Part shown: positions 16,903-18,800 of the stretch, one piece after another
Layout of the letters: each line of letters starts with the position of its first letter
Position numbering within the stretch: the stretch's first letter is position 1
Source of the DNA: Terriglobia bacterium
GTDB taxonomy: Bacteria; Acidobacteriota; Terriglobia; Bryobacterales; Bryobacteraceae
NCBI GenBank assembly: GCA_021324615.1
Contig: JAJPIT010000057.1
Span: 1-64,000 of the forward strand
Direction: 5' to 3'
DNA length: 64,000 bases
Position numbers and translations under genes: made by a program
The notes under the pieces: model-generated
The model's database searches: none
The model's input: only the letters and a program-made list of their open reading frames with translations
What the model was told of the DNA's origin: nothing

Positions 16903-17583
16903 CTATGGATCGGGCACGACGACGGCCTCACCGGCGGCGGCCCGGACCTTTTCGGCCAACTGTTTCGCCTGATCGAGGGAAAGCGAGCGCCCGATGAGTA
17001 CCCGCCAAACCGTCCCCGGGGATTCGACGCGCGTTTCCGGAAACTGCTCGCGCAGGGACTCAGCGAAGGAAGCGGCGCGGTCCGCGGTGGAGAAGGCGCC
17101 GGCCTGAACCGCATAGAGTCCGGCCGCGGGTATGGCGGCGGGCGCCGGCTGTGGGTCCGGTTGCGGGATGGAGCGCGGCGGCGGGATCACCTTCAGTTTG
17201 ACGCGGGCGGTTCCCGGTCCGAGCATGTCGATTTCGCGCGCGGCGGCCAGCGAGAGATCGATGATGCGATGGCGAACGAACGGTCCGCGGTCGTTCACGC
17301 GCACGTCGACTTTTTTTCCGTTGTCGAGATCGGTCACTTCCACCCACGTGTTGAACGGGAAGGTGCGGTGCGCGGCGGTGAACTGCTCCATGTCGTAAAT
17401 TTCGCCGGAAGCGGCGGGCCGGCCGTGGTAGGGAACGCCGTACCAACTGGCGATTCCTTTTTGCGTCGTGCCGATCTTCACGGCGGCGGGAGTCCGCGGC
17501 GAGGCGCGGCGCGCGCAGCCGGAGAGCGCGGCGGCCAGCGCGCCGATCAGCGCCGCACCCGCATGAATACGGCCTCGGAACAC
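16903..17583 (-). CDS. rlpA: RlpA-family septal-ring lytic transglycosylase lipoprotein with SPOR domain
   Basis: A 226-residue lipoprotein. The signal ends in lipobox LSGC (Cys about 23). The double-psi beta-barrel domain has ASWYGVPYHGRPAASGE, TAAHRTFPFNTWV and VRVNDRGPF...IIDLS, the RlpA signature that cleaves denuded peptidoglycan at the septum. A Pro-rich linker leads to a C-terminal SPOR domain (LYAVQAGAFSTADRAASFAES) that binds such glycan. The GTG at 17583 has no Shine-Dalgarno and lies 7 bases after TAGAAT (minus, 17596-17591), suggesting a leaderless mRNA. Confidence 0.9.
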   Translation of the reverse strand: MFRGRIHAGAALIGALAAALSGCARRASPRTPAAVKIGTTQKGIASWYGVPYHGRPAASGEIYDMEQFTAAHRTFPFNTWVEVTDLDNGKKVDVRVNDRGPFVRHRIIDLSLAAAREIDMLGPGTARVKLKVIPPPRSIPQPDPQPAPAAIPAAGLYAVQAGAFSTADRAASFAESLREQFPETRVESPGTVWRVLIGRSLSLDQAKQLAEKVRAAAGEAVVVPDP

Positions 17584-17596: not shown

Positions 17597-17678
17597 TCCG
17601 ATTGCGTTTGATTCGTTCCGGCCGTCTCCGCCGGCGGCGGAAGCGAGGGCGCGCGCGGGCCGATGATGCATTTTTTTC

Positions 17679-17707
17679 TTGACTTTCAAATGAAACCACC
17701 TTATAAA
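17679..17707 (+). promoter_or_regulatory. Near-consensus sigma70 promoter of the Lys-rich peptide gene
   Basis: TTGACT (17679-17684) and TATAAA (17702-17707) are separated by exactly 17 bp, the best-matching housekeeping promoter seen in the window. The inferred transcript starts near 17714 and carries a short hairpin (arms about 17720-17728 and 17731-17739) in its leader. Confidence 0.7.
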
Positions 17708-17767
17708 GGGGACACAACCGCGCTCTTCCAAGAGCTGCGAAATTTGATGTAAGGGGAGAATCAATCG

Positions 17768-17833
17768 ATGAAGAACGCAACCAAGAAGAAAGCGCCTGCC
17801 AAGAAGAAGGCTGCTCCGAAGAAAAAGAAGTAG
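17768..17833 (+). CDS. 21-residue lysine-rich basic peptide
   Basis: A short frame encoding 21 residues, 11 of them Lys, the rest mainly Ala and Pro: MKNATKKKAPAKKK followed by AAPKKKK. This resembles the tails of histone H1-like and other nucleic-acid-binding proteins. It is a complete gene: near-consensus promoter at 17679-17707, Shine-Dalgarno AAGGGGAG (17751-17758) 9 bases before the ATG, TAG stop, and a strong rho-independent terminator at 17871-17901. No cysteine or hydrophobic segment is present. Binding to DNA, RNA or another polyanion is inferred from charge only; an RNA role for the same transcript is also possible. Confidence 0.7.
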   Translation: MKNATKKKAPAKKKAAPKKKK

Positions 17834-17870
17834 CCCGGCAGGCTCGACAAGTTCGAGTTCCATCCCATCC

Positions 17871-17901
17871 GGCCCCGAGAAATCGGGGCCGTTTTTATTT
17901 T
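17871..17901 (+). terminator. Rho-independent terminator
   Basis: GGCCCCGA (17871-17878) and TCGGGGCC (17883-17890) form a perfect 8-bp stem closed by a GAAA tetraloop, followed by GTTTTTATTTT. It ends the Lys-rich peptide transcript. Confidence 0.9.
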
Positions 17902-17912
17902 GCGCTCGACCT

Positions 17913-18800
17913 TCAGGAGGCCTGGCCGAAGAGCCTGGCGACCGCCGCGCGCAACTCTTCATACCGCATGGCGCCGGGATGATACATGCGCACGATGCCG
18001 GAGCGGTCGACCAGCACCAGCGTGGGCGTGGTGCTGGCGCCGTAGCGGAGGAAGTTTTCCTCGTTCACCGGCGCGGGCGAGGTGAGAATGGCCGAATAGC
18101 GCTCCTGCCGGATCTTCTCGATGTAGCGAAGCTCCACCTCGGGCGGCGCCTCCTCTCCGGATCCGATGTAGCCGTAGCGCCGGGTGGGCGCGACCAGCGC
18201 CAGCCCCTTCGGCCCGAACTCCTGCAGGATGCGGGCCAGCACCGGAGCCTCGGCTTTACAATCCATGCACCAGTGCGCCCAGAAAAAGATCAGCACCGGC
18301 CTGCCCTTGGGCAGCGAGACGGCTTGCAGGGCGGGAGCGGGGCGGCCTTCCATCGTCAGCAGGTTGAGATTCTTTTGGATGCGCGTGCGGATCGAGGTCG
18401 AATAAAATCTTTTGAGCTGATCCTGAAGGTAAGCGACCGCTTCGCTGCGCTGATGGCGCGCGGCAAGGACGTTGGCTTCCACTTCGATCGCCGCCCCGAG
18501 CGCGACCGGCAGCGAAGGGTCGTCGTCGAGCTTGCGGTTCTTCAGCGCGGCCGTCGAGAGCTGATACGTTTCGCTGGCGAACTTTTCGGCGGCGTCGTAG
18601 TTCTTCAATTGAAGCTCGGCGCGGCCCATCCAGCTCAGCGCTTCCAGCCACTCCGGGGTGGCGCCGGAGGAGGAACGGTAGGCGTCGAGCATCCGCGTCG
18701 CTCCGGCGAAGTCGTTCCGGGCGATTGCGCCGCGCACCTCCGCGACGATATTGGCCCAAGCGAGGCCGGCCGCAAGGACCAGCGGCAGAAGAAATTTCAC
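17913..18800 (-). CDS. TlpA/ResA-like thioredoxin-fold protein with N-terminal helical region
   Basis: A 295-residue exported protein. The signal peptide (MKFLLPLVLAAGLAWA) is followed by a TPR-like helical region (about 20-155, EWLEALSWMGRAELQLKNYD). A thioredoxin domain comes next, with the redox motif FFWAHWCMDCKAEAP and the cis-Pro stretch TTPTLVLVDRSGIV. It probably acts in periplasmic thiol chemistry. The GTG at 18800 has a strong GGAGGAGG Shine-Dalgarno. It lies 12 bp downstream of the SDR gene on the same strand, so the two are likely co-transcribed. Confidence 0.85.
   Translation of the reverse strand: MKFLLPLVLAAGLAWANIVAEVRGAIARNDFAGATRMLDAYRSSSGATPEWLEALSWMGRAELQLKNYDAAEKFASETYQLSTAALKNRKLDDDPSLPVALGAAIEVEANVLAARHQRSEAVAYLQDQLKRFYSTSIRTRIQKNLNLLTMEGRPAPALQAVSLPKGRPVLIFFWAHWCMDCKAEAPVLARILQEFGPKGLALVAPTRRYGYIGSGEEAPPEVELRYIEKIRQERYSAILTSPAPVNEENFLRYGASTTPTLVLVDRSGIVRMYHPGAMRYEELRAAVARLFGQAS

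Follow-up and report, generated by a model that had tools for sequence, protein, structure and literature searches.

A conserved micro-gene for a lysine-rich peptide in the Terriglobia, a candidate free-standing polycation

A complete monocistronic unit occupies positions 17671-17901 on the plus strand of the window, a term used here for the entire 64,000-nucleotide stretch that was analysed. It comprises a promoter, a 5' hairpin, a Shine-Dalgarno sequence, a frame of 21 codons of which 11 specify lysine, and a terminator. The question raised by this locus is whether so short a frame is a gene for a peptide, whether its transcript acts as an RNA, and what the product might do.

The promoter (17671-17707), as read from the sequence, consists of a T-tract at 17671-17677, a -35 element TTGACT at 17679-17684, a 17-bp spacer and a -10 element TATAAA at 17702-17707. 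Its description as the best sigma70 promoter of the window was fair, yet it is tied with three others, a total of four sigma70-type sites with spacers of 16-18 bp scoring 10/12. The block TTTTTTCTTGACTTTC, in which the T-tract is joined to an extended -35 element, occurs a single time in the window against an expectation of 0.04, and the combination of T-tract, TTGAC and TATA is found once genome-wide. Across 40 diverse units the T-tract, CTTGAC and TATA were invariant or nearly so. A 5'-terminal leader hairpin, supported by folding and covariation, spans 17719-17739 and is followed by the Shine-Dalgarno sequence, or GGGAGAAU box, which reads GGGGAG at 17753-17758 (GGAGAA is invariant across 59 units) and lies 9 nt upstream of the ATG at 17768. 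The reading frame MKNATKKKAPAKKKAAPKKKK extends over 17768-17833, with codons at 17768-17830 and a TAG stop at 17831-17833. The intrinsic terminator (17870-17901) has a 9-bp stem within 17870-17891, a GAAA loop and a T-tail at 17892-17901, and equivalents are visible in nearly all relatives. The fold of the transcript was more stable than those of shuffled versions (z = -3.6). Each part of the unit described by the sequence-only reading, from promoter and 17-bp spacer through hairpin, Shine-Dalgarno sequence and lysine-rich frame to the GAAA-looped terminator, was found where that reading had placed it.

Two genes assigned using Pfam flank the unit on the minus strand and lie outside it: a divergent gene for an RlpA-like protein with DPBB and SPOR domains (16903-17583) and a convergent gene for a thioredoxin/TlpA-like protein (17913-18800). 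Since the T-tail is present on the plus strand only, the hairpin at 17870-17891 can be excluded as a terminator of the convergent gene. The unit was divergent from an upstream rlpA-like gene at 107 of 156 loci, and in many other genera the convergent position is taken by a Methyltransf_28 (PF02636) gene. The apparent absence of co-transcribed genes is evidence against a role as a leader peptide or attenuator. A conserved upstream mini-frame beginning at the GATG of GATGTTAGGG was also ruled out, its frame relative to the peptide differing between relatives.

The unit had been predicted to be too short for standard gene finders and was indeed missed by standard annotation. No match to Pfam was obtained for the peptide or for its 79- and 87-residue versions, and NCBIfam yielded only two matches, each to a single member, at E-values of 8-9.5. 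A profile of 40 peptides returned no match from the PDB at E-values up to 10, a test weakened by low complexity. Rfam models, applied at their gathering cut-offs and also at relaxed ones, gave no match in the window, nor at the unit in eight relatives. The peptide strings were not found in the papers searched. Small-ORF catalogues that accept frames of at least 30 nt exist (PMC11364881) and may hold some of these peptides anonymously.

Searching relatives for the same promoter-peptide-terminator block at the DNA level recovered the unit from 72 of 101 genomes, including all but one of the same genus. A covariance model extending from the promoter through codon 8 matched 212 of 250 genomes of the order, 211 of them in family f1 and one in family f2, almost always as a single copy; 19 genomes of f1 without a match were among those listed, and no unit was present among the listed genomes of sister family f3. 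Family f1 is probably the Bryobacteraceae, which NCBI taxonomy places in the class Terriglobia. A second model, built from family f11, matched 117 of 299 genomes of the class, and the same architecture, with peptides of this kind, could be read directly in loci of families f4, f6, f8, f10, f11, f93 and f94. When genome contigs with organism names were searched for the pattern, 97 records were obtained, nearly all labelled as Bryobacterales, Bryobacteraceae, Solibacteraceae or other Acidobacteriota. Outside the class, model matches were weak and fell mostly on promoters of unrelated genes. On this comparative sequence evidence, the micro-gene is old, single-copy and conserved across the Terriglobia. 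In another family of the phylum the T-tract TTGACTTT type of promoter precedes a frame resembling mraZ (L185, L188, L191). Family f80, also of this phylum, has a K-rich frame of 29 residues, MAAKKAAKKAPAKKAAKPAKKAAKKAAKK, behind a T-tract promoter (L331, the same place as L189), which would be either a distant member or a case of convergence.

Selection at the codon level was assessed using 18 frames from the same genus, with 200 shuffles of the alignment columns as the control. The frames exhibited a pS of 0.47 and a pN of 0.038, yielding a pN/pS of 0.08, a value as low as which was reached by none of the 200 shuffles (mean 1.04). Variable columns were distributed 4/2/16 over the first, second and third codon positions. 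In more divergent families, pN/pS was 0.30 for frames of 22 residues (shuffle minimum 0.46) and 0.17 for frames of 23 residues (shuffle minimum 0.43). Changes in frame length involved whole codons, and the frame was intact in 59 loci of f1, in dozens of genera and in most other families. The pN/pS of 0.08, unmatched by shuffling, indicates that the peptide is translated and selected, and these comparisons support a real protein-coding small gene under purifying selection.

The 249 loci collected gave 140 distinct peptides of 11-87 residues, usually 20-24, with an overall content of 48% lysine and 31% alanine and not one aspartate or glutamate; arginine and aromatic residues were almost absent. 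At least two of the last three residues are basic in all 140. The peptide gene and the polycationic product with signals for strong expression that the sequence-only reading had proposed are thus both supported, the first by codon selection, whole-codon length changes and the lack of acidic residues, the second by this composition together with the promoter, Shine-Dalgarno sequence and terminator. Peptides of the relatives matched at the DNA level begin MK[NSTYF]ATKK, continue as lysine blocks linked by alanine and proline, end in KKKK and are mostly 18-27 residues long. Those of other families include MAAKKKAKKKR of f6, with 11 residues, MATKKKAKKKKKH of f11, with 13, MKKSATKKAPKKKAAKKKKR of f10 and MKLATKKAAAKKKPAAKKKKK of f8. 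Repeat-expanded forms of 52, 76, 79 and 87 residues lie under the same promoter and leader, which indicates that length is loose and charge is kept. A lysine-rich composition and a basic end appear to matter more than exact sequence or length. Genomes of the same genus (L164, L168) also encode larger proteins of 169-184 residues in which an acidic N-terminal portion precedes a lysine-rich tail (MNDYRLS...DDDD...KKAAAK).

The reading preferred here, to which a probability of roughly one half is given, is that of a single-copy, class-wide micro-gene whose product would be a free-standing polycation of lysine, alanine, proline and threonine, devoid of acidic residues and acting by charge on a polyanion. 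Judged from the anatomy of the unit, transcription would be strong, the 5'-terminal hairpin would confer stability on the mRNA and translation would be efficient. The composition suggests a disordered peptide, comparable to a histone H1 tail lacking any folded domain, whose charge would neutralise or condense a polyanion such as rRNA or another RNA, the nucleoid or polyphosphate. Selection on composition is compatible with any of these partners; RNA or DNA would probably be coated by the peptide, and association with the nucleoid or with RNA may be envisaged. Composition in lysine, alanine and proline, disorder and expected polyanion binding are shared with the KPAA domains of AlgP and PhaF, with Hc1 and Hc2 and with the tails of HU. 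In contrast, the product of the micro-gene is the tail alone, mostly of 11-30 residues, with no folded domain and with its own promoter and terminator. DUF6496 proteins (PF20106) occur in the same genomes and have a MATKKxxKK start resembling that of the f11 peptides, but they have 85-126 residues, their C-terminal domain is conserved and their leader differs; one genome (G484) contains proteins of both types. Proteins of DUF6496 type in f11 (L347, L349-L354, L356) combine the MATKKxxKK start with long lysine-rich N-termini and are possibly a source or a sink of micropeptide sequence.

Of the other explanations, the one that survives best, although it is held only tentatively, is that the transcript of approximately 190 nt, with its 5' hairpin, exposed GGGAGAAU box and terminator, acts as a regulatory RNA in addition to encoding the peptide, the ORF having been lost several times while the RNA persisted. 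Hairpins near the 5' end commonly protect mRNAs, and the leader hairpin lies close to the predicted 5' end. In 59 sequences 95.9% of the cells of its five-pair core were paired, and its covariation score was 0.383 compared with 0.170 in shuffles, none of 500 reaching 0.383. Units that lack the ORF but still have the promoter, the hairpin, in most cases the GGGAGAAU box, and the terminator were found in genera g8 (L338-L340) and g68 (L367-L369) of f1, in g108 (L257-L265) and g106 (L332, L333) of f11 and in one species of g103 (L252). In several species of g8 and g108, all four of these elements surround sequence free of a lysine frame, with the hairpins rebuilt from different sequence. Within g108, from a small sample that includes near-identical pairs, the promoter was 85% identical and the GGGAGAAUAG box 100% identical, compared with 39%, approximately background, for the ORF remnant. 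Loss of the frame with persistence of these elements suggests that the RNA may also act alone, and that the peptide is dispensable in those lineages. The g68 losses, by contrast, look recent: start codon or frame has disappeared in three species and others have no unit at all, which fits decay. Variation of the box between other families is of the kind expected for a Shine-Dalgarno sequence (GGAGGAGAA in f6, GGAGGGAA in f10), and elsewhere the frame is strongly conserved. Units without the ORF represent either an RNA function of their own or successive steps of decay; some RNA role is favoured by how broadly they occur in g108 and g8, decay by the recent-looking g68 losses. The option of an RNA gene, which the sequence-only reading had kept beside the peptide, stands to the extent that RNA parts outlive the frame, but is countered by strong conservation of the frame elsewhere; the pattern named there as favouring an RNA gene, a broken frame with conserved RNA structure, is nearly reproduced in several lineages. 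The ORF-less units of f11 carry repeated AAGGCAACA motifs in the 3' region.

The small hairpin transcript, short frame and terminator are shared with SR1/SR1P and VcdRP, where RNA and peptide may both act; the micro-gene differs in that its peptide is conserved class-wide and its role as an RNA is putative. Acido-1, Acido-Lenti-1 and Solibacter-1 are candidate RNA motifs of the same phylum (PMC2864571). The Rfam models of the first two do not match the unit; Solibacter-1 has no Rfam accession in that paper. In one genome of f11, an Acido-Lenti-1 RNA (RF01687; L177:1164-1210) and the micro-gene are approximately 0.4 kb apart. A more far-reaching and rather doubtful proposal combines both products: a gene-encoded polyamine, in which a disordered core polylysine peptide of the Terriglobia, with a minimum of 11 residues (MAAKKKAKKKR), would be made in bulk to neutralise RNA or DNA and would be encoded on an RNA whose own conserved function lets it survive repeated losses of the peptide.

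A special case of the polycation explanation, unlikely in this specific form, is a peptide binding polyphosphate or granules as a free form of the AlgP/PhaF KPAA tail. The composition is close to that of the AlgP tail, and AlgP has been located on polyphosphate granules (PMC9239181), but the tail of AlgP has 154 residues and is joined to a folded domain. The tiny ribosomal proteins bL37, eL41-like and bTHX resemble the micropeptide in being very short, basic, overlooked by annotation and restricted to lineages; they are arginine-rich and of fixed length, whereas the micropeptide has variable blocks of lysine and alanine. A small constitutive ribosomal protein lodged in rRNA in the manner of bL37 or bTHX would account for the conserved promoter and single copy, and has a precedent in bL37, whose 24 residues were found in the mycobacterial ribosome only by density fitting (PMC5876184). 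Lengths of 11-87 residues and sliding lysine, alanine and proline blocks are nevertheless unfit for a fixed rRNA pocket, the near absence of arginine and aromatic residues also argues against it, as does the lack of the gene from some lineages, and such a protein is considered improbable. Titration of CsrA by the RNA through a GGGAGA box, suggested by a GGA motif close to the hairpin, is highly improbable and was rejected as a general function, since csrA is patchy within the genus (14 of 23 g1 genomes, G000-G022) and several genomes that keep the nearly universal unit, such as G011, listed as 100% complete, have no CsrA. A chance ORF between promoter and terminator, conceivable for a frame so short and of low complexity, is refuted by the pN/pS test and by conservation across the class.

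The micro-gene is class-wide and undescribed in family libraries, and the phylum to which it belongs is among the commonest in soil. With 11-13 codons in some families, it ranks, to our knowledge, with the shortest conserved protein genes of bacteria. Whether bare charge can be a conserved protein function even where there is no fold could be tested cleanly with this gene, and the lineages in which the peptide and RNA roles are seemingly separated provide a natural experiment.
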